64,000 nt of DNA, from positions 1 to 64,000 of the forward strand of contig JAGOHK010000007.1 in the NCBI GenBank assembly GCA_017996175.1, given 5' to 3'. The notes under the pieces are model-generated. The model worked only from the letters and a program-made list of their open reading frames with translations. It was not told where the DNA came from and ran no database searches. The DNA comes from Leptospiraceae bacterium (GTDB lineage Bacteria; Spirochaetota; Leptospiria; Leptospirales; Leptospiraceae). Positions within the stretch are counted from its first letter, which is position 1. Every line of letters starts with the position of its first letter. Positions 41,798-64,000 of the stretch are shown here, piece by piece. The position numbers and the translations under genes are program-made.

Positions 41798-41838
41798 TGA
41801 TTAATTACCTTTCTTTACCACTAAACGCATAATGCCTA

Positions 41839-42207: not shown

Positions 42208-42222
42208 ATTTTATTTATCCCC

Positions 42223-42477: not shown

Positions 42478-42567
42478 TGTTTTTTACCATAGTTCGACAA
42501 GCTCACTACACCGCCGATACTTCTTTCTTCCATTAACCATTAATAATTTACCATTAACCATTAGTAA
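42478..42567. repeat. Short repeats inside the chemosensory operon
   Basis: The 90-base gap holds a TTCGACAAGCTCA fragment of the palindromic family at 2409, and two tandem-like copies of CCATTAACCATTA separated by about 15 bases (about 42531-42561). No gene is seen; the gap is large compared with the other gaps in the operon (1-41 bases). Confidence 0.55.
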
Positions 42568-42924: not shown

Positions 42925-42930
42925 ACGTTC

Positions 42931-43800
42931 CTACTCTTTACAATATACGAGAAATTTATTTAATCGAATCAATTTAAACGCTAGTGTAATTCTTCCCATC
43001 GACTCGCTTGATCCAAGAAATACATAACCTTTTTCATTCAATGCTGAATAAAAAATCTCTACCGCTCTTCGTCTTGATTCATCATCAAAATAGATCAGCA
43101 CATTTCTACAAAATACAATGTCAAAATTTCGCTTCAACCGCATCCTATCTTTATCATTCAAATTTAGATGCTCAAAATGCACAACGGATCTCACAGAATT
43201 ATTAACGTGGAATGTTTGTTTTGATTTGTCATAATTAAAATAATTATCCAAGTATTCGGCAGGTGTATCCTTAACACTTCTATGCTCATAAATTCCCGCT
43301 TCCGCTTTTCGTAAAACAACCTGGTCAATATCACTTGCCACGATTGTTATCTTCCATTTTTTAATATCATCTAAAATTTCATGCAGTATGATGGAAAGAG
43401 TATATGGCTCTTCTCCGGTGGAACAACCTGCACTCCAAATTCTTAACGTATAATCATTTCTTAGCATCTTTTGTTCTACGACTGCTTTAACACATTCCAC
43501 AAAAGCTTCTAACTGTGGAAAGTCTCTGAAGAAAAAAGTTTCATTCACTGTAACAAGATTTAAAAATTCTTGTAATTCAACCCCATTTTTATCAGAGTAT
43601 TTGAGATAACGAATATATTCCGCTGCACCACTGAACCGTAACTCTCTGATTCTTTTTTGTACCCTATTGTTTAGGAGGTAAGTCTTATTAGCCTCCATCT
43701 TAATTCCACTTTTATGATAAATGAAATTTGCGAGGATTTCAAATTCTTCCGGAGAAAGATAATCTTCGGTTTTAAATATTGATGATTTTTTCTCATCCAT
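42931..43800 (-). CDS. CheR chemoreceptor methyltransferase
   Basis: From the ATG at 43800 it is 289 residues. This start has a GGAGG site 9 bases upstream and overlaps the HEAT gene by 8 bases; a longer reading from 43905 would add 35 residues overlapping HEAT, and is rejected. CheR motifs are present: VNETFFFRDFPQ, the SAM loop IWSAGCSTGEEPYTL, and VFCRNVLIYFD. It methylates glutamates on the local receptor, opposing CheB. Confidence 0.93.
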   Translation of the reverse strand: MDEKKSSIFKTEDYLSPEEFEILANFIYHKSGIKMEANKTYLLNNRVQKRIRELRFSGAAEYIRYLKYSDKNGVELQEFLNLVTVNETFFFRDFPQLEAFVECVKAVVEQKMLRNDYTLRIWSAGCSTGEEPYTLSIILHEILDDIKKWKITIVASDIDQVVLRKAEAGIYEHRSVKDTPAEYLDNYFNYDKSKQTFHVNNSVRSVVHFEHLNLNDKDRMRLKRNFDIVFCRNVLIYFDDESRRRAVEIFYSALNEKGYVFLGSSESMGRITLAFKLIRLNKFLVYCKE

Positions 43801-44782
43801 TTTTTTCTTCCTCCATTGATTCAATACAAAAAGCCTGAAACTCTTTGCTACCTCTTTTCCCCCATTCCCGAACAAACTCAAATGCTTCTTTATTACCTGA
43901 AGCAAGTAATAACTTCACACAAATAACTCTCATATCCTCATCAAGTTTCTCAGTGCTAGCAATTTCTTTTAATATTGGTATACACTCATTAGGCGCAAGA
44001 ACTTCTTTTTTTATAAGCCAATCAATCGAGGCTAATATGTCTTCGCTATAATTTCCTTCTTTTTGTTTGTCTCGCACTAATTGCAGGAACTCTTCTTTTT
44101 TTCCACTTTGAGCGAGGAGTCTCATTACCTGCGGTATATAAATAGAATCCACTGATTGCAAATCTTGAAATAAAGTGGAGATTGTGCTCTCGAAATCTTC
44201 TTTATCTCCAATTTTCAGAACACAATCTAAGACTGTAGATCGAAGCATTGGCTCATTTACTCTTTGGTACAATTGAATCAAATCATCTAGACTATTTCTA
44301 TCTCCCAGTCTCCCTAGGTATTCAATCGCAGTGATTACCACGTTGATCGATGGATCATAGAGGCAGGCACGAAATATTTCCAACACAGAATTTTTTGTCT
44401 CGCTTCTCCTAGAAGCAATTTCTACAAGTGAATCTAAAATCAATTTTCTTACTTCTTTATCAGCATGATCTAAATAGGAACTAAGGAAGGTAACAACATT
44501 TTCCCCATAAGCAGAAAATATACTAACCGCCGAGTTTCTCATAAATGCATCTCTATCGGGAAACAGTTTAAAAATCACCGGATAAGCTGGAGTATGCTCC
44601 ATTTTTTGTAAAACAGATACAATACTATTTTTTACAGCTGGAGAAGTTTCTACTTTGAGCCGTGTTAAAAGTTCTAAGGAAAGCTCTATTAAACCAAAAT
44701 CTAATATATCCTCGACAGCATACAACCTTTCTGATTCCTCTTTACTATTCAAAAGTAAAATTAATTCATCTTTTTTTTTCAT
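43793..44782 (-). CDS. HEAT-repeat protein of the chemosensory operon
   Basis: 329 residues made of repeated two-helix units with the HEAT pattern (for example DPSINVVITAIEYLGRLGDR and DAFMRNSAVSIFSAYGEN). No enzyme motif or membrane segment is visible. It is one base from cheB and overlaps cheR, so it is firmly part of the operon. A scaffold binding the receptor, CheB or CheR is likely. Confidence 0.85.
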   Translation of the reverse strand: MKKKDELILLLNSKEESERLYAVEDILDFGLIELSLELLTRLKVETSPAVKNSIVSVLQKMEHTPAYPVIFKLFPDRDAFMRNSAVSIFSAYGENVVTFLSSYLDHADKEVRKLILDSLVEIASRRSETKNSVLEIFRACLYDPSINVVITAIEYLGRLGDRNSLDDLIQLYQRVNEPMLRSTVLDCVLKIGDKEDFESTISTLFQDLQSVDSIYIPQVMRLLAQSGKKEEFLQLVRDKQKEGNYSEDILASIDWLIKKEVLAPNECIPILKEIASTEKLDEDMRVICVKLLLASGNKEAFEFVREWGKRGSKEFQAFCIESMEEEKNG

Positions 44783-44783
44783 A

Positions 44784-45878
44784 CTATCCCAACCTCCTTA
44801 TTGCTTTTAGAATTTCTGGAACGATTTGATAACTAGGAACAACAATATCTGCTCCTCCTCTATCTATTGCCTCTTTCGGCATACCAAAAACAACCGCAGT
44901 CTCTTCACTTTCAGCAATTGTAATTCCACCTGCTTTTTTTATTTTTACCATTGCATCAGCACCATCATCTCCCATTCCAGTCATTAGCACACCAATTGTA
45001 TTCTTTCCGAAAATACTCAAAACTGATTCCATCATCACACCCACCGACGGCATAAAAAAATGTTCAATGTCAGTCGAAAGACGAACTTGAATTTCGCTAT
45101 TCGGACGTTGTCTCAATTGTAGATGATAACCACCCTTCCCTAAATACCCATTGTTTATCATCACAGTATCACCAGCTTCTACTTCCTTGATTGGAATTTG
45201 GGAATGGTCGTTGAGTCTACCGGCAAATGATTTTGTGAAGTTAGGCGGCATATGTTGGACAATGAATAATGCTGCTCCAAGATCTTCTGGAATTTCTGGA
45301 ATAATTTCGGAAAGTGCTTTCGGACCACCTGTGGAAATTCCAATGGCGACCGCAATTTTTACCGATACATTTGATTTGATTACTTCTCTATTTTTTTTAT
45401 TCGGACTAAGAGGTTTAGAAACATTGCGATTAAATTCTTTTACTCGATTCATTCGCTTGCGGATACGATTGATTGCACCTGACTTAGCGGCTAATTTGAC
45501 TTTGGCGATAATTTCATCTGCTACTTGTTTTATATTCAAAGAAACAGTTCCGCCTGGCTTGGGCACATAGTCAAATGCGCCCAGTTCCAGAGCTTCAAAT
45601 GTAATCAACGCCCCTTCTTGCGAAAGAGAGCTGACGATGAGAACAGGACAGATATTTTCATTTACAATGTATTGCATTGCAGTAATTCCATCCATCCTCG
45701 GAAGATTTATATCCATCGTCACAACATCAGGATGTATCTCCCTTGCTTTCATGACTCCTTCTTCTCCATCTCTCGCAAGTGTTACTTCGATGTTTCTATC
45801 TGATTCTAGAATTTTTTTCAATTCCTTTCTCATGAAAGCAGAATCTTCAACAACTAGAACGCTGATTTTTTTACCCAT
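44784..45878 (-). CDS. CheB protein-glutamate methylesterase
   Basis: 364 residues. An N-terminal receiver (phospho-Asp in VTMDINLPRMDG) is joined by a linker to the methylesterase domain with the catalytic Ser in GISTGGPKAL, His in VQHMPPNFT and Asp in GMGDDGADAM. It demethylates or deamidates the receptor when phosphorylated by CheA. It follows the triple CheW gene by 6 bases. Confidence 0.95.
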   Translation of the reverse strand: MGKKISVLVVEDSAFMRKELKKILESDRNIEVTLARDGEEGVMKAREIHPDVVTMDINLPRMDGITAMQYIVNENICPVLIVSSLSQEGALITFEALELGAFDYVPKPGGTVSLNIKQVADEIIAKVKLAAKSGAINRIRKRMNRVKEFNRNVSKPLSPNKKNREVIKSNVSVKIAVAIGISTGGPKALSEIIPEIPEDLGAALFIVQHMPPNFTKSFAGRLNDHSQIPIKEVEAGDTVMINNGYLGKGGYHLQLRQRPNSEIQVRLSTDIEHFFMPSVGVMMESVLSIFGKNTIGVLMTGMGDDGADAMVKIKKAGGITIAESEETAVVFGMPKEAIDRGGADIVVPSYQIVPEILKAIRRLG

Positions 45879-45884
45879 TAAAAA

Positions 45885-47744
45885 TTAAACTCCAACTCTC
45901 GCAGTTTCTTTGAGTTGTTGTTGCTCTTCACCACTCAGAATTTTGTCTACATTGAGGATAATAATAAATCTCCCCTGCTTTGCCAAGTTAGCAATTCCGT
46001 CAATAAACTCAGTCTCTATTTTAGAACTGATAATCTCCGGTGGTGGTTCAATCAATTTTCTAGAAATTCGAATTACCTCAGATACAGAATCTACAATTAA
46101 ACCGGTAGTCTTATCTAAAATATCTACGATGATTACCCGCGTAGCCTCTCCATGTTTCACTATTTCTAAATTAAATCTTTTACGTAAGTCAATAGCCGGA
46201 ATTACATTTCCGCGAAGATTCATAATCCCCTCTACAAAGGAAGGAGAATTTGGAACAGCGGTTACTCCTGTTAGGCGATTGATTTCGCGAACGTCTTCTA
46301 TATATAGACCGAACTCTTCCTTACCAAGTCTAAATGTAACTAACTGCACCTCAGCTTCTTGCAAACTTTCTCCTCCATGAATAGCTTCTTTTTCCTTTTC
46401 AGAAACGTTCTCTTGCTTAACATCCAGGATACGACTCATTAGCTTCTCATTGAATAGTTTTTTTTCATCTAAGAAAAGAATCAGTCTTTTTCCTTCATCC
46501 AGCTTTACTATTCCTTGCAGATTATCTTCCTTATCCCCATGAATGATTCTTGGCGGGGGATCAATTATATTTTCAGGAATGCGAATAACCTGCTGCATCC
46601 TATCGACCATAATCCCAATGGAATTTTTATTAATATCTGCTACTAGAATTCTCTGGTCTTCCTTGATGTCTTCTTTTACTCCCTCTTTGCAATCACTTAG
46701 GGTTAATAGCAATTGTTCGAAGCCAGACTGAATATTTTTTTCTAGATACGATTTAATCTCATCGGAAGTTTTTACATCCTTTGTCTTGAACAAATTTTGA
46801 GAGTGAAAATGTATATCCTGATGTATAAATCTTACTTTTTGCAAGATTTTTCCAATCTCTTCACTCGAGGTTCTAAACGATTCAATCCACTGCAACGCAT
46901 CAACCGTTTCAATACTACGAAAGCCAGAATCAGATTCGAAGGAATACTTAAATCCTGAAAACCAGTTTTGGTAGCTTTTTTCTAGTCTCTCGATTTCTTG
47001 TAACTTGTTTTCTACAAGGGAGGGCATACCAAAGAGTTTGCGTAAATCAATGATAGGAAGAAGCTCATTACGAAGAGCCAAAACTCCAAGCACATAAGCA
47101 GGAACTTCTGGAACTTCCGTAATTTTACTTACTCTTAGAATTTCCTGTACCGATTGAATGGTAAATCCATATTCTTCTAGTCCCACAAGAAATGTAACCA
47201 ATTGCTTTTCGGCTATCGCATTTTTTTTATCTGTCTCTACAGATTCTTGTTGCACATGGGTTCTTTTAGTCTTCTCGAGAGTCACATCAATATTACAAAG
47301 TGAGTCTACATTTAGCTCAAGAGTAATTCCTTCATTATCCTTAGCATAAATTACTTTGTGAATAAATTTACTATCAACTCCGGAAGATAGTATTGGAGGT
47401 GGAGTTTCTACTCTCACATTTTCCAAACTAGCAACTCCCTTTACACTATCTACAATCACTCCGATGAGAGACTCATTTACATCTAGGACGAGAACTCTTG
47501 TTCTATCTGTTACAGGTGCAACAGGAAGGTTTAAGCGAATTCTTGCGTCTAACACCGGTAATACGTTACCACGTAGGTTGGTCAGACCCTTTAGATATTC
47601 CGTTGATCTAGGGACATGCGTGATTTCAGGATAACGAACAATTTCCTTTATTCTATGAATTCCAATTCCAAATAACTCTTTGCCTATATGGAAAGTAGCG
47701 ATCTGGGTTTCATTCACACTCTTTTTTTCGAGTAATGTTTCCAT
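45885..47744 (-). CDS. Triple CheW-domain scaffold protein
   Basis: 619 residues with three CheW domains at about 13-150, 180-420 and 465-605. Each shows the CheW core (for example GLTNLRGNVLPVLDAR and GIMNLRGNVIPAIDLR). The middle domain holds an insertion of about 110 residues (about 250-360) with EKSYQNWF, LQWIES and FIHQDIHFHS, which recalls a CZB zinc domain but with several ligands changed. One such protein can bridge several CheA and receptor units in an array. No separate single-domain cheW is in the window. Confidence 0.9.
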   Translation of the reverse strand: METLLEKKSVNETQIATFHIGKELFGIGIHRIKEIVRYPEITHVPRSTEYLKGLTNLRGNVLPVLDARIRLNLPVAPVTDRTRVLVLDVNESLIGVIVDSVKGVASLENVRVETPPPILSSGVDSKFIHKVIYAKDNEGITLELNVDSLCNIDVTLEKTKRTHVQQESVETDKKNAIAEKQLVTFLVGLEEYGFTIQSVQEILRVSKITEVPEVPAYVLGVLALRNELLPIIDLRKLFGMPSLVENKLQEIERLEKSYQNWFSGFKYSFESDSGFRSIETVDALQWIESFRTSSEEIGKILQKVRFIHQDIHFHSQNLFKTKDVKTSDEIKSYLEKNIQSGFEQLLLTLSDCKEGVKEDIKEDQRILVADINKNSIGIMVDRMQQVIRIPENIIDPPPRIIHGDKEDNLQGIVKLDEGKRLILFLDEKKLFNEKLMSRILDVKQENVSEKEKEAIHGGESLQEAEVQLVTFRLGKEEFGLYIEDVREINRLTGVTAVPNSPSFVEGIMNLRGNVIPAIDLRKRFNLEIVKHGEATRVIIVDILDKTTGLIVDSVSEVIRISRKLIEPPPEIISSKIETEFIDGIANLAKQGRFIIILNVDKILSGEEQQQLKETARVGV

Positions 47745-47753
47745 TTAATCCCC

Positions 47754-49721
47754 CTAGTTGGATTGTAACTCATCTGCAAGTGCTGCGATTTCTTCGATAG
47801 CTTCGGATAATTCTTGTAATCCTTTCGCCTGCTCTTCTGATGCAGCAGATGCTTGGGACACAGACTTCATTGATTCTTCAGCGGCAGCACTAATATTATC
47901 CACAGCTTTCTTGGCTTCGTCGTTTGCTTGCTTCGCCTCTCTAGAATTTTTTAACATGTCAGTCATTGCTTTGTCGATGACTCCCATATCCCCTTCCATT
48001 TTATTCAAACTATCCGTGGACGCTTTTGCCTTTGCTACTTCACTCTGTGCCATATTCCCAGAAAACTCTACATTTTGCGCACATGTATCAATAAGTAACG
48101 AAAGAGATCTTACCAAGTTTTTAATTTTATCAGCACTCACAGAAGATTCTGTAGCAAGATTACGAATATCACCGGATACTACCGAGAAACCTTTTCCGTG
48201 CTCACCAGCTCTTGCTGCTTCTATCGAACCACTGACCGCAAGCATATCTGTCTTAATCGTGACATTGATAATGGACTCTACAATTTTATCTATCGCTAAG
48301 GATTTTTCTCCGAGGGTACGAACAATCTTAGCCGCATCCAAATTCTTGATTGCTGAAGCACTGATATTTGTAATCATTTTATCTATATCAACTTTACTCG
48401 TACCTAATTTTTTCAGCATATCCTGTGCTTGCTTTTGCATGTTGTTTGCATTAATTTCCACTTGTGCATTCGTTGCAGCAAGCTTTTCGCCAATCTCAGT
48501 TCCCTTTGAAGTTTCTTTTCCTTGAATTTCTGCCCCTTTTTGAATTTGTTCAATTGCTTTAGCAAGTTCCTGACTAGCAGAAAGAGCTTCTTCAATATTA
48601 GCAGATAATTGTTCTGACATAGACGCCAAGTCTTCAGCAGATTTTTGTAAGTTAGTAGAATTTTTTAATTCTTCTGCGGTTTGTGCTAATTCTTCTGCGG
48701 CTGAGGACATCTCTGAAAATGCTTTAGTCTGTTGCTCTGTTCCTTTACGGGATTCTTCTGTGCTTGCAGATAATTCTTCTGCAGCAGACGCAACATTCTC
48801 AGACATTTTTAAAAAATCTTTCGAATAAATTAAAATATCTGCAACTCCTTTTTCAGTCTGACGGCTAATCGTCTGAAACTCCGTCATGGAATTTGCTATT
48901 GCATTTAACCCATCGGAAATACTTTTACCTTTTTCTGCTTCTTCTCTGGCAATCTTTCCAATATTACCAACTTCTTGTACGACCTTTCGGACCTCTCCTT
49001 GGATTTCAGCCACAACATCTTTAATTTTGTTTGCTGACTTTTCTGAAGTTTCAGATAAGTTACGCACTTCATCGGCTACTATAGCGAAACCGCGTCCATG
49101 TTCTCCCGCTCTTGCTGCTTCAATGGCAGCGTTCAGTGCCAACAAATTGGTCTGATCTGCAATTCGCACGACAGACTGTACGATGTTTCCAATTTCATCT
49201 GATTGTTTTTCTAAATCAGTCATGAGCTCAGCAGTTTTCATTGCAGTATTAGCGGCTTGGGTGACGCCTTCGATTAAAATAGAAATATCTCTGCCAGTAT
49301 TTAATGCAAATTCTTTAATTGTATTTACTTTATCTAATGTTTGAATTGCAAGTGTCGCATTTATTTGTGCATTTTTTTCAATTTGTGTAACGGTTACTTT
49401 TGTTTCTTCGGAAGCACTGCTAGATTCCTCTGCACCAGATGCAATTTGTTGCATAGAGCGCATAAGCTCTTCTGATGCACTACTTCCTTCTTGTATGCCA
49501 CTCGATAACTGCTCAGCAGCAGTTGCAATTCGCTCACTAATTTGTTGTTGTTTTGCCATCGTTCTTGCTTTTGCTTTTTCGGTAGCAATTCTTTTTGCAT
49601 CATCTCTTTTGTGCTGAAACTCTGCGCCTTGATCAGATAAATCTCTTTCCTGATATTTAGATTTGTCGCCTAATCCCGGTTTGGCTAAACTTTTTCCCGA
49701 TAATCCTCTGTTTCTTTCCAT
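47754..49721 (-). CDS. Soluble chemoreceptor with two signalling tips
   Basis: 655 residues, no membrane segment and no HAMP. The first tip (about 190-222) has the canonical [20 protein letters not shown]. The second (about 493-525) reads IKTDMLAVSGSIEAARAGEH, with the receptor-contact residues altered. Long coiled coils with E-E/A-S-A repeats flank both, and the sequence between them looks like a second full copy. The N-terminal 60 residues are basic and polar, with no sensor domain. It heads the chemosensory operon; input must come from elsewhere, perhaps from the partner proteins. Confidence 0.9.
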   Translation of the reverse strand: MERNRGLSGKSLAKPGLGDKSKYQERDLSDQGAEFQHKRDDAKRIATEKAKARTMAKQQQISERIATAAEQLSSGIQEGSSASEELMRSMQQIASGAEESSSASEETKVTVTQIEKNAQINATLAIQTLDKVNTIKEFALNTGRDISILIEGVTQAANTAMKTAELMTDLEKQSDEIGNIVQSVVRIADQTNLLALNAAIEAARAGEHGRGFAIVADEVRNLSETSEKSANKIKDVVAEIQGEVRKVVQEVGNIGKIAREEAEKGKSISDGLNAIANSMTEFQTISRQTEKGVADILIYSKDFLKMSENVASAAEELSASTEESRKGTEQQTKAFSEMSSAAEELAQTAEELKNSTNLQKSAEDLASMSEQLSANIEEALSASQELAKAIEQIQKGAEIQGKETSKGTEIGEKLAATNAQVEINANNMQKQAQDMLKKLGTSKVDIDKMITNISASAIKNLDAAKIVRTLGEKSLAIDKIVESIINVTIKTDMLAVSGSIEAARAGEHGKGFSVVSGDIRNLATESSVSADKIKNLVRSLSLLIDTCAQNVEFSGNMAQSEVAKAKASTDSLNKMEGDMGVIDKAMTDMLKNSREAKQANDEAKKAVDNISAAAEESMKSVSQASAASEEQAKGLQELSEAIEEIAALADELQSN

Positions 49722-50101: not shown

Positions 50102-51433
50102 ATGGAGCAGATTTATTCACAAACTATTTTGCTTGTAGAAGATGATCCGGTGTATGCAACCATTTTATCAACGATCATTGAGCGTTATTTTAATTATCCC
50201 ACAATCATTGCAGATGGGAGAAATGCTCTTGAATATTTATTAAGGGCGGAGGATATTCCCAAAATGATTTTAATGGATTACCAATTACCTCAAATCAACG
50301 GCATTGAGATACTTAAAACTCTAAGTGAGACAAATCGGAATTACCCTGTTATTTTTCTTGCATCGGCAGGAGAGACTGGTGTTGTAGTTGAGGCAATGAA
50401 AGCCGGTGCTTTGGATTTTTTAGAAAAAAGTCATTTTCAAATCAATGAATTACCTTTTATAATCAATAAAAATATCCATATTTTCCAAGATAGAATTGAA
50501 AAATTGAGACTTCAAAAAGAATTAGAAGAATACAAAATTCACCTAGAGGAAATTGTTAAAGAACGAACAGAAGAACTCCAAATTCATAAAGAGCTTTTAG
50601 AGGATTTAGTAAAACTTAGAACACTAGAATTAGAAAATGCACTATTAAAATTAAAAAATGCACAAAATCAAGTAATCCAATCTGAAAAGATGGCATCCCT
50701 TGGAATTCTTCTCGCAGGAGTTGCACATGAAATTAACAATCCAGTTAATTATATAAATTCAAGTGTGATCGGCTTACATAACGTATTCGAAGATATTTTA
50801 ATATATTTAAAAAAAACAACCGAGATAGAAAATTTACCGGATATTCCAGCCTTAGATTTAGAAAAATCAGCAGAGAGAATTGAAAAAATGCTTACTAATA
50901 TTGAGACTGGAATTTCGAAAACGAAGCAAATAGTAAATAGCCTACGAATATTCTCTAGAAGTTCCGAAGGCAGTATGCACCAAACAGATATTCATGAGAA
51001 CATAGATTGTGCATTGACAATTTTGCAAAATGAATATAAGGGAAAAGTGGAAATCATAAAAAACTATAATGAAATTTCTCTGGTTCATTGTTTCTCTGAT
51101 AAATTAAATCAAGTCTTAGTGAATCTATTCATGAATGCAATCCAAGCGATCGAAAATAAAGGAGAAATTATTATCACCACTCTGAAACATGGGAAAGAAA
51201 AAGTGAGTATATCTATCCAGGATACCGGATGCGGGATTCCAGAAAGTATCCAAAATAAAATTTTTGATCCTTTTTTTACAACCAAAGAACTAGGAAAAGG
51301 AACCGGTTTGGGATTAAGTATTGTCTATGATATTATCCAGCAAATGCAAGGCGAAATATTAATGAGAAGTGAATTAGGAATAGGGACAATATTTACGATT
51401 ATTTTACCTATTTCGGAGAATACCAACGGCTAA
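50102..51433 (+). CDS. Receiver-histidine kinase hybrid (receiver first)
   Basis: 443 residues. Receiver at about 6-122 (phospho-Asp in MILMDYQLP, but the Lys position reads FLEKSHF). A charged coiled coil (about 130-195) leads to a DHp with the His in [16 protein letters not shown] (about 208) and HATPase with DTGCGIPES and [11 protein letters not shown]. The N-terminal receiver suggests this kinase is controlled by another kinase, perhaps CheA. It starts the plus-strand signalling run. Confidence 0.92.
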
Positions 51434-51479
51434 TGGCTACATTATTATTTATACGATTTAGGATTTGACTGAAAAAATT

Positions 51480-51845
51480 ATGAAAACAATACTACTTGTT
51501 GACGATTCCACATTCACGAGAAACAGCTTAAGGAAAACACTTCTGGATAAAGGATTAAATATTCTTCAAGGTTCAAACGGAATGGAAGCGATCGAAATAT
51601 TGAAGAATAACTCAATAGATCTTATTGTCACAGATCTCAACATGCCAGAAATGGATGGACTAGGTCTTCTTGAGAGGCTAAAGGCAAACAATCATAAAAT
51701 TCCGGTTCTAGTCTTCACAGCGGATATTCAAGATACAACGCGAGAACATTGCATGAATCTAGGTGCTAGAGATGTAATACATAAACAATTTAATCAAAAA
51801 CTTCTCAGCAATATTGAAAGTATACTGAATGAGGATGTCCCATGA
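51480..51845 (+). CDS. Single-domain response regulator
   Basis: A receiver of 121 residues from the ATG at 51480 (an upstream TTG at 51465 would add five residues). It has LLVDDSTFTRNSLR, phospho-Asp in IVTDLNMPEMDG, and Lys-type HKQF in place of the usual K-P. It overlaps the CheC-like gene by 4 bases and is probably its phosphatase substrate. Confidence 0.88.
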   Translation: MKTILLVDDSTFTRNSLRKTLLDKGLNILQGSNGMEAIEILKNNSIDLIVTDLNMPEMDGLGLLERLKANNHKIPVLVFTADIQDTTREHCMNLGARDVIHKQFNQKLLSNIESILNEDVP

Positions 51846-52459
51846 ACATTAACGAAGAAACAATTGATACAATAAAAGAGCTTATTAATATTGGGTGCGG
51901 GAGTGGTGCGGGTATTTTAAACCAGATGGTCAAATCCCATATTACCCTCCATGTTCCTTCCATAAGAATTATTGCCGACAGGAATATTCTTGATACATAT
52001 CTTAAAGAATATCAAAAGTATCAATGTGTAAATGTAAATATCGCGGGTGATCTACACGGAGCAATATCTATGCTATTGACAGAGTCAACGCTTGTAGTAC
52101 TTGTGAAACGACTAACTGGCGAAGATGCTCTCGATGACGCAATAGATGGACTAAAAATAGAAGTCATTCAGGAGATAGGCAATATTATCCTTAATAGCAT
52201 TTCCGGTACAATTTCTAATCTATTTCGTTTAAAAATAAATGTGTCCCTTCCTGAATTTCATAATGATATTCAGAGTTTTATTACTAAAAAAATCAATGAA
52301 AAGGATTATTCTCATTATGTTCTAGTTGAAACATCCATGAGCGTTGATGATCTAAATATTACATTCTATATCATAATACTTTTAGAAGCTGATTCATTTC
52401 AATACCTGATTGAGAATATGGATTCAATTTCCCTATTCAATTTTAGTAAGGCTAATTAG
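51842..52459 (+). CDS. CheC-like CheY-P phosphatase
   Basis: 205 residues, with two copies of the CheC active motif (E-x2-N): DTIKELINIGCGSGAGILNQ (about 9-28) and VIQEIGNIILNSISG (about 112-126). CheC-family proteins dephosphorylate CheY-type receivers. The overlap with the preceding receiver gene points to that protein as target. No cheD is nearby, although CheD commonly partners CheC. Confidence 0.83.
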   Translation: MNINEETIDTIKELINIGCGSGAGILNQMVKSHITLHVPSIRIIADRNILDTYLKEYQKYQCVNVNIAGDLHGAISMLLTESTLVVLVKRLTGEDALDDAIDGLKIEVIQEIGNIILNSISGTISNLFRLKINVSLPEFHNDIQSFITKKINEKDYSHYVLVETSMSVDDLNITFYIIILLEADSFQYLIENMDSISLFNFSKAN

Positions 52460-52470
52460 GATTTAACTCA

Positions 52471-53559
52471 ATGACCAAATTAGACTATTCAATTTTTGAT
52501 ATTATCTCTCAAGGAGTTTGCATTATAAACCGAAACCTAGAAGTAATTTTCTGGAATAAGACCTTGGAAGAATGGACCGGTGTAAAATTACCACAGATTC
52601 TTGGTAAAGAAATAGGAGTATTTTTTCACCATTTAAGGCAACCACAGTATGGAGCTCTAATCAGAACAAAAGTGTTCGAAGACAACACTCCTCTTATTTT
52701 TTCTGCCCTTATACATAAGTATTTTTTTTATGCTCATGTAGATGAAATGCATACTCGTAAGCAGCATACAACAATTACACCCATACCACCAAGGGACGGT
52801 GAGGGGCAACGTGCCATTATCTTCGTCCAGGATGTTACAGAGCTATATACAAAAATGCTTGAGATGAAAACTCTTAGGGATGATGCAGTGCGAGAAGGCG
52901 AACAACTCAAGCTTGCAAAAGAAGAAATTAAATCACTACTCTCTGAAAAAGAGCTTGTTTTGAAAGAAGTGCATCATCGAATAAAAAATAATATGAACAC
53001 GATACGAGGTCTTATCCTTTTGCAGTCAGAAATGCTAAAAGACCCAATAGCTGCCGAGGCACTGAGTAATGCAAGTAGGAGAATACAGAGTATGACAATA
53101 CTTTACGAAAAACTTTATCGATCTAAAAATTTGTATGAAGTTTCTATGAAAGATTATCTCCCGTCCCTGATTGATGAAATTTTAGAGAATCTTTTTATGG
53201 GGGTAAATGTAAAAATTGAAAAGGAAATAGATGATTTTATTTTAGATTCAAGAAGATTACTTCCATTTGGAATTATCATCAATGAACTTTTAAGCAACGC
53301 TATGAAATATGCATTTCTAGATAGGAAGGAAGGGATTATTTCTGTGGAAGCAAAATTGAAGAAGACAGTTACAGGAGATGGTAAACTTATTTCCCTTACC
53401 GTTAAGGATAATGGCAACGGGTTACCAGAATCAGTCGATATAAATAATTCAACAGGATTTGGTTTAATGCTCGTGAAAATGCTGACAAGACAACTGAGTG
53501 GAAATATTCAAGTAGAACAAGAAAATGGAACTAGATTTATTTTAGAATTTGCAGAATAG
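52471..53559 (+). CDS. PAS-HisKA_2 histidine kinase
   Basis: 362 residues. One PAS domain (about 5-125, INRNLEVIFWNKTLEEWTG) is followed by a coiled coil and the HisKA_2 motif KEVHHRIKNNMNTIRGL (His about 167), then an HATPase with NELLSNAMKYAF, DNGNGLPES and GFGLMLV. HisKA_2 kinases often act in general stress response, as in alphaproteobacterial systems. It follows the CheC gene by 11 bases. Confidence 0.9.
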   Translation: MTKLDYSIFDIISQGVCIINRNLEVIFWNKTLEEWTGVKLPQILGKEIGVFFHHLRQPQYGALIRTKVFEDNTPLIFSALIHKYFFYAHVDEMHTRKQHTTITPIPPRDGEGQRAIIFVQDVTELYTKMLEMKTLRDDAVREGEQLKLAKEEIKSLLSEKELVLKEVHHRIKNNMNTIRGLILLQSEMLKDPIAAEALSNASRRIQSMTILYEKLYRSKNLYEVSMKDYLPSLIDEILENLFMGVNVKIEKEIDDFILDSRRLLPFGIIINELLSNAMKYAFLDRKEGIISVEAKLKKTVTGDGKLISLTVKDNGNGLPESVDINNSTGFGLMLVKMLTRQLSGNIQVEQENGTRFILEFAE

Positions 53560-53660
53560 AAAACGGGGAATGACATTTTATTCATTTCTTGTATTTCTGA
53601 TTTATACAGGTTTAGTGTGATATAGGTATTAGAAATTCAATTTAGTATTGGAGAGTTTTG

Positions 53661-54233
53661 ATGGAAAATTTAAAAGCGAATATTTTATATGTGGATGATG
53701 AAAGAGAAAACCTCGATGGTTTTGAAGCAAGTTTTTATAATGTATATAATATATTTCTAGCGGATAATGGTAAGAGCGGACTTGAGATTCTTCGCAATAA
53801 AGAAATTCATGTTATTGTGTCTGATCAGAGAATGCCTGAAATGACTGGTTTAGAATTTTTTGCAGAGGTTCAAAAAAAATATCCAGATATAGTTTGCATC
53901 ATATTAACCGCGCACGTTGATTCTGAATCCTCCATTCGGGCAGTGAACCAAGGTGGAATTTACCGTTACATCCTAAAACCCTGGGATAAAAATGAAATGA
54001 AAATGAGCCTAGATAATGCAGTACAGACATATAAATTAAAAACTGTAAATCGTTCTTTAGTTTCAGAATTACAAAAAAAAAATAAAGAATTAGAAGAGCA
54101 TAAGAATAATCTGCAAAAATTAGTAGATCAGAAAACGGAAGAACTTAATTTGAAAAATAAGGAATTAGCTAAGATCAATGCGATGAAAGATCAGTTTTTT
54201 TCTTCCATTCTTTCACAGACAAAGGATAAATAA
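53661..54233 (+). CDS. Receiver plus coiled coil, kinase part missing
   Basis: 190 residues from the ATG at 53661. The receiver (phospho-Asp in IVSDQRMPEMTG, Lys in ILKPWD) is RpfG-like. A coiled coil (about 125-175) follows, and the protein ends INAMKDQFFSSILSQTKDK, the same start as a DHp helix (compare TKDKFFGIIAHDLRNP in the kinase at 36584). It stops before the His, so it looks like a receiver-kinase truncated to a receiver with a dimerisation stalk. Confidence 0.85.
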   Translation: MENLKANILYVDDERENLDGFEASFYNVYNIFLADNGKSGLEILRNKEIHVIVSDQRMPEMTGLEFFAEVQKKYPDIVCIILTAHVDSESSIRAVNQGGIYRYILKPWDKNEMKMSLDNAVQTYKLKTVNRSLVSELQKKNKELEEHKNNLQKLVDQKTEELNLKNKELAKINAMKDQFFSSILSQTKDK

Positions 54234-54298: not shown

Positions 54299-54328
54299 TT
54301 GACATACAAAAATTACTTACAATATATT
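54299..54328 (+). promoter_or_regulatory. Promoter of the stressosome-type operon
   Basis: A perfect TTGACA at 54299-54304 and TATATT at 54323-54328, spaced 18 bases. The next start codon is at 54363, preceded by AGGAG. This gives the RsbR-RsbX unit its own start of transcription. Confidence 0.7.
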
Positions 54329-54362
54329 TTTAGTAGACAATTAAATAATATAGGAGACAAAG

Positions 54363-55208
54363 ATGTCGCTTAACGTAGAAATTTCAAGCTTAATTAACAA
54401 ACATTCCAATTCAATCTGTGATAAATGGATTGAACTAATAGAAGAGCAAATACCGGTAATCTTCGATCTATTTCGAAAAGAAGATTTGAATGCAAAAGGA
54501 AAAGAAATTTTATACTCCCTTTCGACTGCAATCAAACAAAATCGGGAAGGAGTTGAATCTTCAGATTCTACCCTATTATCTATTCTCCAAGAACTAAGCC
54601 GTGAACTTACTTTAAAAAATATTACTCCGACTGAAACTGCACTTCTGATTTTTAATCTAAAGGAAGCGATACTTCCTGCGATTAAAATCGAATTTTCTAA
54701 TGTTCCGGATAAGCTAATAGATATTAGCCTCGTAGTCAACCGACTAATTGATAAACTTGGATTATTTACTGTAGAGACTTACATTCAAAATAAAGAAAAT
54801 TTAATCAAAGAGCAAACAAGAGCGATTCTAGAAATGGCGACACCGGTTGTTAAAATTTGGGATAAGATTATTTTGCTTCCACTAGTTGGAGTTTTAGATA
54901 GTACAAGGGCAAAACAAATGATGGAATCTCTTTTGGGGGCAATTGAAATTAACCAAGCGAAGGTTGCGATTCTCGATATTTCAGGAATTCCAATCATTGA
55001 TACACTCGTTGCACGGCATCTTTTTACTACGATTGCGGCGGTGAAACTTATGGGTTCGGAATGTATTGTCACGGGAATAAGTGCAAGAATTTCTCAGACG
55101 ATTGTACAACTAGGGCTTGATCTTACTGGAATTACAACAAGATCCAATCTAGCAGACGGTTTGCAACTGGCACTCATAAATACATCGCAATCCGTTTCTT
55201 TAAACTAA
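54363..55208 (+). CDS. RsbR-like stressosome scaffold (N-terminal helical + STAS)
   Basis: 281 residues. Residues 1-150 are helical, resembling an RsbRD-type N-terminal domain rather than a globin sensor. The STAS domain (about 165-280) has the RsbR pattern VAILDISGIPIIDTLVARHL, whose Thr matches the first RsbT phosphosite, and a downstream GISARISQTI where the second is expected. RsbR and RsbS form the large stressosome complex that holds RsbT until stress. The helical part probably senses an unknown signal. Confidence 0.9.
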   Translation: MSLNVEISSLINKHSNSICDKWIELIEEQIPVIFDLFRKEDLNAKGKEILYSLSTAIKQNREGVESSDSTLLSILQELSRELTLKNITPTETALLIFNLKEAILPAIKIEFSNVPDKLIDISLVVNRLIDKLGLFTVETYIQNKENLIKEQTRAILEMATPVVKIWDKIILLPLVGVLDSTRAKQMMESLLGAIEINQAKVAILDISGIPIIDTLVARHLFTTIAAVKLMGSECIVTGISARISQTIVQLGLDLTGITTRSNLADGLQLALINTSQSVSLN

Positions 55209-55225
55209 GAAGAGGATGCTAATAT

Positions 55226-55600
55226 ATGGATGATATGGATTTTCAGATATCGATTTTACAATTACGGGATATACTAATCGTTCCAATTCAAATGGAACTA
55301 CATGATAATGCGGCTAGAAAGCTTCAAATAGAAATACTTAATCGTATAGAAAAAACAAATGCAACGGGTTTAGTGATCGATATTTCCTCTGTGTTTATTG
55401 TAGATAGTTTTCTTGGCAGACTTCTTTCGGAAACTGCACGTATGGCGCAGATCATGGGCGCAAAAGTAGTATTAATCGGTATGAAAAAAGAAACAGCTCT
55501 AACTCTAATTCAACTTGGATTAAATTTTAAGAATTTGAAAACAACTTTAAATTTAGATGAAGCCGTAAATTTTTTAGAGCTTCATAAGGATAAAAAGTAA
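55226..55600 (+). CDS. RsbS-like STAS stressosome protein
   Basis: 124-residue single STAS domain with LVIDISSVFIVDSFLGRLL, the Ser of the VDS segment being the expected RsbT phosphosite, and GAKVVLIGMKKETALTLIQLGL. It is the core subunit of the stressosome. It is 17 bases behind rsbR, and its stop overlaps the rsbT start by one base (TAATG). Confidence 0.92.
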   Translation: MDDMDFQISILQLRDILIVPIQMELHDNAARKLQIEILNRIEKTNATGLVIDISSVFIVDSFLGRLLSETARMAQIMGAKVVLIGMKKETALTLIQLGLNFKNLKTTLNLDEAVNFLELHKDKK

Positions 55601-56013
55601 TGTCACATGAACAAGAGAGTCAAGTGTGTTATTTGAGCATCAATACGTTTGAAGACTTACTTATCGCTAGAAAGAAAGCAAGGCTTCTTATGGAAATTAA
55701 TCATTTTTCCATTTTGAATCAAACAAAATTTATTACTGCCATTTCAGAGCTTCTAAGAAACGCACTTATTCATGCAACTAAAGGAAATGCAAAATTCTCT
55801 ATCATTGAAAAGTCAAATAAAATTGGGATAAAAGCTTTTATCTCTGACAATGGACCGGGTATTCAAAATGTATCTCTCTCCATGACAGAAGGATATAGCA
55901 CAGTAGGATCTTTAGGACTTGGATTAAGCGGTGCTCAAAAGTTAAGTGATGATTTTTCAATTTCCTCTACTGTCGATGTCGGAACAAATGTTCAGATTAT
56001 AAAATGGAAATAA
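55600..56013 (+). CDS. RsbT-like switch kinase
   Basis: 137 residues of GHKL kinase fold: N-box ISELLRNALIHAT, G1 DNGPGI, and the RsbT-typical EGYSTVGSLGLGLSGAQKL. It phosphorylates RsbR and RsbS, is freed from the complex, and then activates a downstream phosphatase. It overlaps the next gene by 10 bases. Confidence 0.92.
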   Translation: MSHEQESQVCYLSINTFEDLLIARKKARLLMEINHFSILNQTKFITAISELLRNALIHATKGNAKFSIIEKSNKIGIKAFISDNGPGIQNVSLSMTEGYSTVGSLGLGLSGAQKLSDDFSISSTVDVGTNVQIIKWK

Positions 56014-56993
56014 AACAATCTGAAATTTTAGAAATAGGGATTGCCGATGAGGCAAATGTACTATATGCGCGTCGTTTATTTCGTAATTTTTTTAAGTCTC
56101 TGGGATTTATAGACTTTGATCTAGATAAGATGGAATTAGTAGTTTCCGAGCTAGGGACTAATATTGTAAAATATGGAGTCAGGGGAATAATTACTGCTAA
56201 GCGAATTAAGTATCTATCGCATACAGGCATTGAAATAATAGCAAAAGATAGAGGAAAAGGAATTTCAAATATAATGGAGTTTCTAAATAAAAAACCAGTA
56301 ATAAATACCAGTAGCTCCTTAAAATCAGGTCTTTCAGCTATTTACAATTTAACAGATGAGTTTGAATATCTAAATTCAGAAAATGGTACCACAATTACAC
56401 TACGTAAATGGCTTCCTTTCAATGAGGCAACTCTTAAGTATTCGGTAATATCCCGACCTAAGCCCGGCGAACTAAAAAATGGAGATGCTTTTTTTATTAA
56501 GCAACTTCCTAAATTTTCTTTTTTCTGCGTCATTGATGCATTAGGACATGGTGAGCAAGCAGCGGCTACTGCCAATATTGCGATGGACTGCATAAAGTTA
56601 TATTACTATTTGCCGCTCTCAGAAATATTTTTAAAATGCCATGAACATCTTGATCATAGTCATGGCATAGCAATATCTATTTGTAAAATTTATACACGAG
56701 AAAGTAAAATGGAATATGTCGGAGTGGGAGATGTAAAATTACGAGTATTCGGCGCTCCAGAATCACTTCGAATTTTCAATCATAATGGAACAGTAGGTAT
56801 GAATATGGAGCCAATTAAATTACAGACGTATAAATATTTTTCTGGCTCTACGTTTATTATGCACACTGATGGAATTGCCGACTTTGAATTAAATCAAGAT
56901 ACACTCAGATTAATTCCCCAGGCAATAGCAAGCTTTGTAATGGAAAAAGAGGCAAGGTCATCGGACGATGCAACAGTTTTAGTAGCGAGGTAA
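56004..56993 (+). CDS. RsbT-like kinase fused to RsbX/SpoIIE-type phosphatase
   Basis: 329 residues. The N-terminal 135 residues form a second GHKL domain (VVSELGTNIVKYG, KDRGKGISN, ending GTTITLRKWLPF) like RsbT. The remainder is a PP2C/SpoIIE-type phosphatase of the RsbX kind, with GDAFFI, IDALGHGEQAA and SSDDATVLVAR metal-binding elements. RsbX dephosphorylates RsbR and RsbS to reset the complex; here kinase-like and phosphatase domains are in one chain. The kinase half retains the ATP-binding boxes. Confidence 0.9.
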   Translation: MEIKQSEILEIGIADEANVLYARRLFRNFFKSLGFIDFDLDKMELVVSELGTNIVKYGVRGIITAKRIKYLSHTGIEIIAKDRGKGISNIMEFLNKKPVINTSSSLKSGLSAIYNLTDEFEYLNSENGTTITLRKWLPFNEATLKYSVISRPKPGELKNGDAFFIKQLPKFSFFCVIDALGHGEQAAATANIAMDCIKLYYYLPLSEIFLKCHEHLDHSHGIAISICKIYTRESKMEYVGVGDVKLRVFGAPESLRIFNHNGTVGMNMEPIKLQTYKYFSGSTFIMHTDGIADFELNQDTLRLIPQAIASFVMEKEARSSDDATVLVAR

Positions 56994-56996
56994 TGT

Positions 56997-57647
56997 ATGG
57001 ATTCAATATATATTTTATATTTATTATTTTTTTTCGGATTTGCTATTTCAATTGCAATTTCACTGGTTGTTTTTCTTAAACAAGAAAAACTAAAAAACTC
57101 CAATCAGGATTTATATAGCTTTCTTTATAAATTAGAAAGCACATTAAAAGTCACCAATATGCAAATTCAAGACTCCATTGGAAAAATTGGACAGGGCACA
57201 AATGGAGCAATTGAGAAATTTGTAGAAGTTCTAAATATAAATGACAATATCTCTCGAGAATTGAATTCAGTGAAAGACCAAATTCACTTAGATTCCCTAC
57301 CAGAAAAAGAAGAACAGAAACAGAAAATTGAAAAAATTTTAGAAAACAGTAAATTTCAAAAACAGAATATCCACGAAATTATTAGCCGTCTCCAATTCGA
57401 GGATATAACAAAACAAATCAACACACATGTAACCGAATTATTAACACTTGTTGCATCCGAATTAAAAAAACAAACTGAGGATTATTCAAATCCAAAATCA
57501 GAAGAAGAAATTCGAAAAGAATTAGCTGAGGAGATTATTCGACTTTCCACGATGCAATCAGAACGAGATAATGCAAATAAAGCTCTCTCGCAAACTCCGA
57601 TCGCTGAAACCAAAAAAGAGAACTCTCAGGACGTGACTTTTTTTTGA
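56997..57647 (+). CDS. Membrane-anchored CheZ-like protein with DVTFF tail
   Basis: 216 residues. One N-terminal helix (about 5-28) anchors a long helical, charged cytoplasmic part. RLQFEDITKQ (131-140) matches the catalytic D-x-T-x-x-Q-type helix of CheZ (F-Q-D-L-T-G-Q), with Asp136 and Gln140. A linker then leads to the last residues QDVTFF; CheZ proteins also end with a short CheY-binding tail. It starts 3 bases after the RsbX gene, so it is part of that operon. A phosphatase for a CheY-like receiver is inferred, not shown. Confidence 0.65.
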   Translation: MDSIYILYLLFFFGFAISIAISLVVFLKQEKLKNSNQDLYSFLYKLESTLKVTNMQIQDSIGKIGQGTNGAIEKFVEVLNINDNISRELNSVKDQIHLDSLPEKEEQKQKIEKILENSKFQKQNIHEIISRLQFEDITKQINTHVTELLTLVASELKKQTEDYSNPKSEEEIRKELAEEIIRLSTMQSERDNANKALSQTPIAETKKENSQDVTFF

Positions 57648-57688
57648 AGAACGTGAACTTGGTGAAATACTAAAGAGGTATAAAACGA

Positions 57689-58936
57689 ATGCTGATTAAC
57701 ATACTCATAGGATTGCTAGCCGGATCAATTGTTACGAGTATTTTAATTTTTTTGTATTCAAAACAATTAAAAGAAAAACTTTCTTCGACCACAGAAGAGC
57801 TAAATAAATTAAAAGAGCAAAATGATCTTTTAAAAGTGCAGAGTGAGAGTTATCGCACGTTAGCCGCTTCGATATTAGAAAAAACATACCAAGATATTCC
57901 TCGTTACGTAAATATAAAAAAAGACCTAGCAGTATCCAATGTGAACGTGGACGACATCGCATCTTCCCTTCGGGATACGAATGATAAATTAGTAACACAT
58001 TTCTCTGGAATTCTTTCGAATATTGATGGGATAGTTAAAGAAGTAATTCGAGAAACTAGTAACGCGGAGCATGAGCTTTTAGCTTTCGTAACAGATGGAA
58101 CCAAGGACAATGAGTTCAAGGCACTTACCGATGAAGGAAGCATTCTAACCAATCATCAATTTCTAGCATTCATTCAAGGAAAATACAATCATTTATTACA
58201 GAAAATCATTGATGAGTTAGTCGTTACCCATGAAAGAAAATCAGAAGACATCACAACTCTAGACAGCATATACCATAGAGTACAAGGCATTACAGCATTT
58301 TCAGATGCGATATCCGAAATAGCTGGTGGAATAGAACTTATTTCTTTGAATGCAAATATTGAAGCGGCGCACGCGGGTAGTGCAGGACGTGGCTTCGTCA
58401 TAGTAGCCAATGAAATTCGAAGACTTGCTGGAGAATCGGAAGATGCCGCAGACAAAATTCGAAAAGAAATAAAGTTAACAAATGCATTTATAAAAGAAGC
58501 AATCCACACAATCAAAGATGCAATGGATGCGGAATCTAAGTATTTGAATTCAACGATTGCAATCATTCAAGATGTTTTTATCGCAATGACAAAAACCTTG
58601 TTTCATCTTATCTTTCAATTGACCGGTACTCTTATGAACTCAATGGGAAATACTAGCAAAATAAAAGGGGAAATTGATATGGCAATTAATGCAATGCAAT
58701 TTGATACATTCATTGTTCAGTTAACGGAAACGATTACTCAATCCTTAAAAAATGCTTCTACTAATGTGGATACTCTAAGTAAAGAGAGTATCAATAATCT
58801 AGAAAAACTAAATCTCTTTTCAGCTAAAGACCTAGCTGGGTTTAGAGAAACTCTTTCCAATATTGAAAAAGAAACAAAAACTTCCTTTCAGCGAGGAAGC
58901 CAAAAACAAGCAGACGCAGATGTTACGTTTTTCTAA
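57689..58936 (+). CDS. Short membrane-anchored chemoreceptor-like protein with DVTFF tail
   Basis: 415 residues. One helix (about 3-22) with no periplasmic domain and no HAMP. The receptor hairpin tip is recognisable but altered: ELISLNANIEAAHAGSAGRG (about 215-235), followed by FVIVANEIRRLAGES. Later, MQFDTFIVQ (336-344) resembles the CheZ-like helix of the preceding protein but has Thr for the Asp. The protein ends ADVTFF. It lies 41 bases after the CheZ-like gene, so they are probably partners in one complex. Confidence 0.82.
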   Translation: MLINILIGLLAGSIVTSILIFLYSKQLKEKLSSTTEELNKLKEQNDLLKVQSESYRTLAASILEKTYQDIPRYVNIKKDLAVSNVNVDDIASSLRDTNDKLVTHFSGILSNIDGIVKEVIRETSNAEHELLAFVTDGTKDNEFKALTDEGSILTNHQFLAFIQGKYNHLLQKIIDELVVTHERKSEDITTLDSIYHRVQGITAFSDAISEIAGGIELISLNANIEAAHAGSAGRGFVIVANEIRRLAGESEDAADKIRKEIKLTNAFIKEAIHTIKDAMDAESKYLNSTIAIIQDVFIAMTKTLFHLIFQLTGTLMNSMGNTSKIKGEIDMAINAMQFDTFIVQLTETITQSLKNASTNVDTLSKESINNLEKLNLFSAKDLAGFRETLSNIEKETKTSFQRGSQKQADADVTFF

Positions 58937-59278
58937 AGGAAACTGCACAGCGTTACAGTTAATGCTGTCAAGTTAAGGATTTTCTCACCACCGATGGACA
59001 CCGAGAGCACCGATAACGGAACGATGTTAATTTGATTTATCATATTCTTCTCGGTTTCATAAAGAGCGTTGTTTAGTGCCATATTATTCAATTCCAAAAC
59101 CAAAATAAAAACCATCGTATCTTTTATCGTTCTTTTTATCGGTGTTCATTCCACCCTGCGCTTGGTCGCGCCCTACGCCTTCGCATGGTATTCTTTACAT
59201 ATTTCTCTCTTGACCAGAAATCGGAAAAAGAAAAAACTAGACGGTAAAATCCTAATTTAGTATACATTAATTCAACCT
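58937..59278. repeat. Repeat-rich gap
   Basis: 342 bases holding ATGCTGTCAAGTTAAGGA (58962-58979, also at 26075), a copy of the ACCGATGAACACCGA family (58988-59013) with an inverse piece ATCGGTGTTCATT at about 59139, and CCTGCGCTTGGTCGCGC...ACGCCTTCGCATGG (59152-59188), the inverse of 26041-26074. The 60-codon minus-strand frame at 58933 starts outside any gene pattern. I see no supported gene. Confidence 0.65.
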
Positions 59279-62950: not shown

Positions 62951-63283
62951 TTATTCACCCCAAACGACAACACATTCTCGATAGAATAGAATTGTTAAAA
63001 CATTCAAAGAAGTATAATCCACAACGGCTACTTTCGTTATTCCCCCATTTGCTTTTGCTTCTTCAATAGATCCACCACTTCCATAAAAAAATAGATTTAT
63101 CAAAAATCCAGAAACAGAACAAGATTTTCCCGATTTTAGAATTTTAGCAGATGCGATTTGACTTCCATTTTGGGTAACATATTGGGAAGTACTAGAATAA
63201 AGAACTCCATGCATAGGGGAGGTACAAGCTTGTATAAATAAAGTGAATACAATTAAACCGATAGATAAAATATTTTTTTTCAT
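62951..63283 (-). CDS. TRL-like lipoprotein
   Basis: 110 residues from the ATG at 63283, which has GGAGAAG upstream; a longer start at 63310 overlaps the previous gene by 31 bases and is rejected. A lipobox (IQAC) follows the signal helix. The rest matches the TRL-like pattern seen in the next two genes: P-x-H-G-x-L-x-x-S, a Cys followed by a hydrophobic helix, then G-I-T/Q-K/R-V/I-A-x-V-D and a final C-x-x-V. Function unknown. Confidence 0.82.
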   Translation of the reverse strand: MKKNILSIGLIVFTLFIQACTSPMHGVLYSSTSQYVTQNGSQIASAKILKSGKSCSVSGFLINLFFYGSGGSIEEAKANGGITKVAVVDYTSLNVLTILFYRECVVVWGE

Positions 63284-63603
63284 TTTGCTTCTCCTGATAC
63301 GATTGTACAATAATTTCTATAGAGTGTGCTTAAAACACTTACAGTAGAGTGGTCAACTGTAGCAATTCTCTGAATCCCATTTTCGAATGCAATTTCTCCA
63401 GCACTGGCAGAGCCAAAGCTAATCAAAAATAAAATAGAATGCTGGCATCCTGATGCAGTTTTTGTGACTTTCACATCATTGGCTGGATTAAAGTTGCCAG
63501 CAAAATCATTGGAAGTAAAAAGAGCGCCATGAGTAGGACCTGTCGCGCAATTGAATAAAATTAATATTACGATAGTTAAAAAAAGTTTTAGAATATATTT
63601 CAT
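63280..63603 (-). CDS. TRL-like lipoprotein
   Basis: 107 residues with a lipoprotein signal (ILILFNC). TRL-like features: GPTHGALFTS, GCQHSILFLISFGSASAG, NGIQRIATVDHS and a final C-T-I-V-S-G. It overlaps the next gene's start by 4 bases (63280-63283) and is clearly homologous to both neighbours. Confidence 0.85.
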   Translation of the reverse strand: MKYILKLFLTIVILILFNCATGPTHGALFTSNDFAGNFNPANDVKVTKTASGCQHSILFLISFGSASAGEIAFENGIQRIATVDHSTVSVLSTLYRNYCTIVSGEAK

Positions 63604-63606
63604 TTG

Positions 63607-64000
63607 TTATTTTCCTCTCTTTGCTGGAGTTTTTGCTTCTGCTCTAGGCTCTACAACTGCTGGTGCTGGAGAACTATCGAAACTATCTTTGCTGCCAAGC
63701 ACAATTGTACAGAATCGGTGATAGACCGAACCTAAAATAGCGAATTGCTCGTATTCTACGGAGGATACTTTTGTTATACCCGCACTTTTTTTTGCATTCT
63801 CAATTCCAGAATTCCCCCAAGATACAAGAAACAGTACGGAATGAGAACAACCTTCTGCTTTTATATTTCCCTCGGTATTATTACCAATGGAACCTGGAAC
63901 GGTGTTTCGATGATAAACACCCCCGCCTATATGCATATAATTTATGTTCGCATACCTTGGTGTTGGGTTCGTGACTGCCCCGTATGAATTTACAGATGTA
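63607..64000 (-). CDS. TRL-like protein, partial at the window edge
   Basis: Reading continues upstream of the internal ATG (63936) to the window end with no stop, so the start lies beyond base 64000. The visible part has YMHIGGGVYHRN, GCSHSVLFLVSWGNSG, AGITKVSSVEYEQ, C-T-I-V-L-G and a C-terminal Pro/Ala/Lys tail (EPRAEAKTPAKRGK) absent from its paralogues. It is the third of a tandem TRL-like series and 3 bases from the next gene. Confidence 0.8.
   Translation of the reverse strand, partial: TSVNSYGAVTNPTPRYANINYMHIGGGVYHRNTVPGSIGNNTEGNIKAEGCSHSVLFLVSWGNSGIENAKKSAGITKVSSVEYEQFAILGSVYHRFCTIVLGSKDSFDSSPAPAVVEPRAEAKTPAKRGK

Follow-up and report, generated by a model that had tools for sequence, protein, structure and literature searches.

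Analysis of a 64,000-nucleotide (nt) stretch of a Leptospiraceae bacterium (contig JAGOHK010000007.1 of the 5.4-Mb assembly GCA_017996175.1; hereafter the window) uncovered a stressosome gene module that runs directly into a gene for a membrane-anchored CheZ-like protein and a gene for a short chemoreceptor-like protein. On balance, and with moderate confidence, we read this arrangement as a local rearrangement that put expression of a chemotaxis phosphatase under the stressosome operon, the link between the two systems being chiefly one of co-expression. RSTX modules (RsbR, RsbS, RsbT, RsbX) with varied downstream genes are already known (PMC9237108), while a CheZ-like gene and a receptor behind RSTX appear to be new among what was searched, in one genome only.

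Organization of the stressosome operon

Six genes lie head to tail on the forward strand between positions 54363 and 58936, encoding RsbR, RsbS, RsbT, an RsbT+RsbX fusion, the CheZ-like protein, and the short receptor, with successive intergenic gaps of 17, −1, −10, 3, and 41 nt. No terminator-like site was found on that strand within the run and, because of this and the tight spacing, the RSTX genes, the CheZ-like gene, and the short receptor gene form one apparent transcription unit as judged from sequence. A sigma-70-like promoter, predicted by consensus match only, precedes the run on the same strand (TTGACA-18-TATATT, 54299–54328). In the stretch that was scanned, it scores best among 49 sites and is the only one matching the consensus at 11 of 12 positions, and the total count of promoter-like sites there is about the expectation from shuffled sequence. 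The next gene, encoding another methyl-accepting chemotaxis protein (MCP), begins 342 nt beyond the short receptor at position 59279 and is probably separate from the six-gene unit. The intergenic stretch at 58960–59200 carries a CACCGATGGACACCGAGAGCACCGATAACGG-like sequence, possibly a dispersed repeat.

By its domains and motifs, the stressosome half is a complete, ordinary RSTX module. RsbR (54363–55208, + strand) combines an RsbRD_N N-terminal domain (E 7.8e-12, 46.3 bits) with a STAS domain (E 4.6e-14, 52.5 bits), both exceeding the Pfam cut-off, and it matches the solved stressosome chain 7o0i_B (E 9.1e-34), with its DTLVA aligned to DTMVA of solved RsbR. RsbS (55226–55600, + strand) is a single STAS domain similar to the solved RsbS chain 6jhk_A (E 3e-24), and it retains the phospho-acceptor serine, where VDSF aligns with IDSF of the solved protein. 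The RsbT switch kinase (55600–56013, + strand) matches HATPase_c above cut-off (E 7.6e-10, 39.7 bits) and also an anti-sigma-F-like family (E 1.2e-13, under that family's cut-off). In the fourth gene (56004–56993, + strand), an RsbT-like ATPase is fused to an RsbX-type PP2C phosphatase, as indicated by Pfam matches to HATPase_c_2 (E 4.2e-10) and SpoIIE/PP2C (E 1.1e-7, 32.4 bits, above cut-off), by similarity to solved RsbX-type enzymes (E 3.6e-19 to 3zt9 and E 2.9e-12 to solved RsbX), and by the metal-binding motifs GD, DALGHG, TDG, and DD in the phosphatase half. Recognisable ATPase domains are kept both in RsbT and in the ATPase half of the fusion. An earlier note on this DNA had described these four stressosome proteins, their own TTGACA promoter, and their direct continuation into a membrane CheZ-like and a short chemoreceptor-like gene, and each of these descriptions held when examined with Pfam, solved chains, and intergenic distances.

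A CheZ-like protein and its place in a congener

The fifth gene (56997–57647, + strand) encodes a 216-amino-acid (aa) protein with a single N-terminal hydrophobic helix, the putative catalytic motif QFEDITKQ, and the C-terminal residues DVTFF. Its assignment comes from profile alignment and from a homologue in one congener, G003 (a Leptospiraceae metagenome-assembled genome, contig JANYCR010000085.1; 620 contigs, 94% complete), which is its one relative among the genomes searched (61% identity), is of nearly equal length, and lacks no domain. When a two-sequence profile of these proteins was compared with a six-sequence CheZ profile in hhalign, FEDITKQ fell on FQDLTGQ with the catalytic residues D143 and Q147 in register (P 2.8e-4, score 33.1); the controls scored lower, with a maximum of 24.0 among 200 column shuffles and of 19.2 among nine other gene pairs from the same two genomes. 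The protein shares with CheZ (PF04344) the DxxxQ catalytic motif in register, a predicted helical structure, and a variable linker followed by a conserved C-terminal tail. It differs in scoring under the Pfam cut-off, in its N-terminal membrane helix, in its spirochaete host, and in ending in DVTFF instead of the CheZ tail VDDLLxSLGF. It probably works like CheZ; membership of the CheZ family is not established.

No PF04344 match was present in the whole genome, none of 296 sampled spirochaete genomes contained one above cut-off, and comparison with solved structures gave no relevant match. Scanning genome contigs with the single protein as query yielded nothing, and scanning with the two-sequence alignment recovered only the already known congener. 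CheZ has been described in Proteobacteria (PMC7750401), and its known range would grow with a spirochaete CheZ-like protein.

The surroundings of the homologue in the congener point to chemotaxis. The window contains a che operon on the reverse strand (38909–49721) that encodes, in order, a soluble double-hairpin MCP, a multi-CheW protein, CheB, a HEAT-repeat protein, CheR, CheY, a STAS protein, CheY, and CheA; the order is the same in the congener (G003:C255). There, the CheZ-like gene sits between a PAS kinase gene, which directly precedes it, and the soluble MCP gene heading this operon, with no stressosome present. In the window as in the congener, only a few bases separate the start of the CheZ-like gene from the end of the signalling gene before it. 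The window's counterpart of the PAS-histidine kinase (36584–38890, + strand) lies at the opposite end of the che operon, a difference that implies rearrangement of the locus in one genome relative to the other. The operon's multi-CheW gene (78% identity) is likewise restricted to these two of the eight family genomes, which argues that the CheZ-like gene follows the che operon and not the stressosome.

Stressosome modules in other genomes

The RsbT+RsbX fusion is of a widespread type, with relatives in 102 plasmid records; plasmid searches gave no match for the CheZ-like protein and only generic MCP matches for the short receptor. In Phaeobacter, Deinococcus, Alloyangia, Sphingomonas, Paraburkholderia, Variovorax, and Halobaculum, the fusion follows R-S-T or part of it and a histidine kinase comes next. 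In Phaeobacter, Deinococcus, Alloyangia, Sphingomonas, both Paraburkholderia, and the spirochaete genome G329, this kinase starts with a third RsbT-like domain. Such modules resemble the one described here in their first four genes, including the fusion (approximately 24–30% identity), but differ in the next gene: the fused RsbT-like domain and histidine kinase is missing from the Leptospiraceae module, and the CheZ-like and receptor genes occupy that place. The earlier note, which has stressosomes usually passing their signal to RsbU or cyclase outputs, thus gives an incomplete picture, since modules with both RsbT and the fusion mostly run into a histidine kinase, usually with an RsbT-like domain. 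Relative to the minimal RSTX module of the Vibrio vulnificus type (PMC9237108), the genes for RsbR, RsbS, RsbT, and an RsbX-type phosphatase are in the same order with minimal gaps, and the STAS domains of RsbS and RsbR align with solved stressosome chains. The differences are that RsbX is fused here to a second RsbT-like domain and that CheZ-like and receptor-like proteins lie downstream in place of PP2C, cyclase, or kinase-receiver proteins.

Within spirochaetes, a full-length fusion was found in two of 393 genomes, namely this one and G329, which belongs to a distant genus; a third genome gave a weak match to the N-terminal part. In G329, the fusion is followed by kinases, and the module continues into a fusion of RsbT-like, histidine kinase, and receiver domains. 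At its locus (contig C113, L077 1691–13689), RsbR is preceded by a gene that looks FapA-like by eye, and a receiver lies further upstream. The earlier note had staked its reading beforehand on a conserved RsbRSTX–CheZ-like–MCP order in Leptospiraceae, and this order was not recovered: the fusion was not found in 60 relatives, and neither RsbR nor the short receptor was found in seven family-mates. Nor is the CheZ-like protein tied to the stressosome across relatives, as the congener carries it without one.

How the two systems may be linked

Together with the congener's arrangement, these distributions suggest a link between stressosome and chemotaxis genes that looks recent, and we infer that it is this genome, and not the congener, that has the derived arrangement. 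Following the established cycle, as transferred here by homology, RsbR and RsbS would hold RsbT; under stress, RsbT would phosphorylate them and be released, and the RsbT+RsbX fusion would reset the complex. If the six genes are cotranscribed, the promoter at 54299 would drive expression of the stressosome along with that of both downstream proteins. Anchored in the membrane by its first helix, the CheZ-like protein would dephosphorylate a CheY of the adjacent che operon, and the short receptor, which ends in the same DVTFF residues, would probably bind the same partner at the membrane.

Several points weigh against this co-expression reading. Intergenic distance predicts cotranscription and does not prove it. 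A single congener carries the che operon, which leaves the direction of the rearrangement unpolarised, and the absence of a stressosome from that fragmented assembly could be a gap. The CheZ-like protein misses the Pfam CheZ cut-off (E 0.19; 12.0 vs 30.7 bits). Its two-sequence AlphaFold model is all-helical but poor (predicted local distance difference test, pLDDT, 58.7), and CheZ was absent among the fold-search matches listed for that model. Of the mixed signalling system proposed in the earlier note, the tight operon stands, as does the chemotactic nature of the CheZ-like protein (catalytic motif in register, location beside the che operon in the congener), while conservation of the order does not; stress partner-switching may be functionally linked to CheY-phosphate.

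A closer coupling would have RsbT, once released, or the RsbT+RsbX fusion bind or phosphorylate the CheZ-like protein or the receptor directly, shifting CheY-phosphate within seconds; this seems to us unlikely. It would fit the general view that genes right after RSTX are its output, of which eleven types are known for globin-coupled modules (PMC9237108), and it would fit the position of the two genes where the RsbT–kinase fusion is missing. Against it, the gene order is not conserved, and no RsbT-docking domain (RsbU_N or RsbT-like) was detected at E up to 1 in either the CheZ-like protein or the short receptor. The latter point is softened by the finding that the majority of downstream proteins considered in PMC9237108 also have no RsbU_N dock. 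That study also tried VvRsbT with VvD1 and saw no interaction. The congener's CheZ-like protein, from a genome where no stressosome was found, is almost as long and lacks no domain, so nothing in the CheZ-like protein described here looks like an acquired RsbT dock; if the congener's protein is active at all, it is so in the absence of a stressosome.

We would give low probability to this locus being the first stressosome with a direct chemotaxis output, one in which RsbT freed by stress would control a membrane CheZ-type phosphatase and a receptor sharing a CheY-docking tail, and stress would set CheY-phosphate and swimming. If it were, the locus would represent a new stressosome output type, at a time when the targets of RsbT in Gram-negative bacteria are largely open. 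A probable phosphatase of phosphorylated CheY (CheY-P) right behind RSTX offers a testable output that can be read quickly as swimming reversals. An aerotaxis output has been proposed for the Vibrio brasiliensis stressosome on the basis of a nearby CheY-like gene (PMC4976288); in the literature, we found no paper reporting a stressosome in Leptospira and none on a stressosome joined to CheZ in the sense meant here.

The stressosome could instead signal upstream. Five genes on the + strand precede the promoter, as the earlier note had stated, and were assigned with Pfam: a receiver-histidine kinase (50102–51433), a single CheY-like receiver (51465–51845), a CheC/CheX-type CheY-P phosphatase with two ExxN motifs, ELIN and EIGN (51842–52459; CheX 1.1e-11, CheC 3.2e-6, and a second CheC match of 1.8e-23 under that family's cut-off), a PAS-HisKA_2 histidine kinase (52471–53559), and a receiver with a C-terminal helical extension (53658–54233). 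That the stressosome signals to this cassette (50102–54233), as RSTX modules elsewhere do to kinases and receivers, with the two chemotaxis genes as bystanders, we also regard as improbable. Kinases, often with receivers, do follow the modules of the seven genera named above and of G329; the G329 module also has a kinase and a receiver upstream. In its kinase part, the PAS-HisKA_2 protein resembles the HisKA_2 kinases found after RSTX modules (E 6e-14 to 4e-16), although kinase-domain similarity is generic and the cassette kinases have no RsbT-like domain. Moreover, 129 nt and the promoter at 54299 separate the cassette from the module. Two unrelated types of CheY-P phosphatase, the CheC-type and the CheZ-like protein, are encoded within 6 kb of each other.

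The short receptor and the shared C-terminal tail

The sixth gene (57689–58936, + strand) encodes a 415-aa chemoreceptor-like protein with one transmembrane helix, a DVTFF tail, and an MCPsignal match above cut-off (E 1.4e-17; 64.5 vs 34.6 bits). In common with MCPs, it retains the signalling hairpin. It departs from them in having a single N-terminal helix with no detected sensor or HAMP domain, in sharing its tail with the CheZ-like protein, and in its hairpin tip, IAGGIELISLNANIEAAHAG, which differs from the usual tip and from that of the window's soluble receptor: GIE and H replace the usual QTN and the R of EAARAG. Because of this altered tip, it is doubtful that the protein joins normal arrays. 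A CheZ-like segment within it (AMQFDTFIVQ vs AxxFQDxxxQ) was considered and set aside as a lead only, as it has no profile support, arises at a rate of 0.135 in shuffles, and replaces the catalytic aspartate with threonine.

Identical DVTFF residues end the CheZ-like protein (57630–57647), the short receptor (58919–58936), and the congener's CheZ-like protein (C255, L024 11381–11398), which keeps them after a diverged linker. The CheZ-like and short receptor genes use different, synonymous codons at four of the five positions, and the tail is therefore not a recent DNA duplication. Across the eight family genomes, total matches to a broad DVTFF-like pattern did not exceed those to a reversed-pattern control, but only these three genes carry the pattern right before the stop codon of an open reading frame of at least 100 aa. 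For a given pair, five identical terminal residues would arise by chance with a probability of about 1e-6; for any pair in the window the figure is about 0.002. DVTFF is probably a shared docking tail, and its partner is perhaps a CheY, by analogy with the C-terminal region of CheZ, which binds CheY-P (PMC7750401). One C-terminal pentapeptide on both a phosphatase-like protein and a receptor suggests a docking motif not described in the literature consulted.

That DVTFF is an odd CheR/CheB pentapeptide, through which both proteins would bring in CheR or CheB, is a reading of the tail only, compatible with the others, and we think it very improbable. Both tails are C-terminal pentapeptides that end in Phe behind a variable linker, and pentapeptide receptors, which make up only some of the MCPs, are known in Leptospiraceae (7.27%; PMC7390727), but DVTFF departs from the pattern (W2, F5) by having Val where the consensus has Trp at position 2 (PMC7390727), and a CheR tether makes little sense on a phosphatase-like protein, CheZ itself ending in a CheY-binding region.

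Other features of the window

The opposite che operon includes a STAS gene, as the earlier note had it; this gene (42223–42477) encodes 84 aa between the two CheY genes, and the congener has a counterpart at the same place, between L024:3543 and 3811. The soluble MCP (47754–49721) has its two signalling hairpins in tandem, with the tip of the second altered (TDMLAVSGSIEAARAGEHGKGF), and there is a syntenic copy in the congener. The multi-CheW protein (45885–47744, 619 aa) comprises several CheW domains, with four matched stretches, and the HEAT-repeat protein encoded between CheB and CheR (43793–44782) is conserved in the congener. At 62951–63936 on the reverse strand, three neighbouring genes encode small, apparently related, lipoprotein-like proteins.

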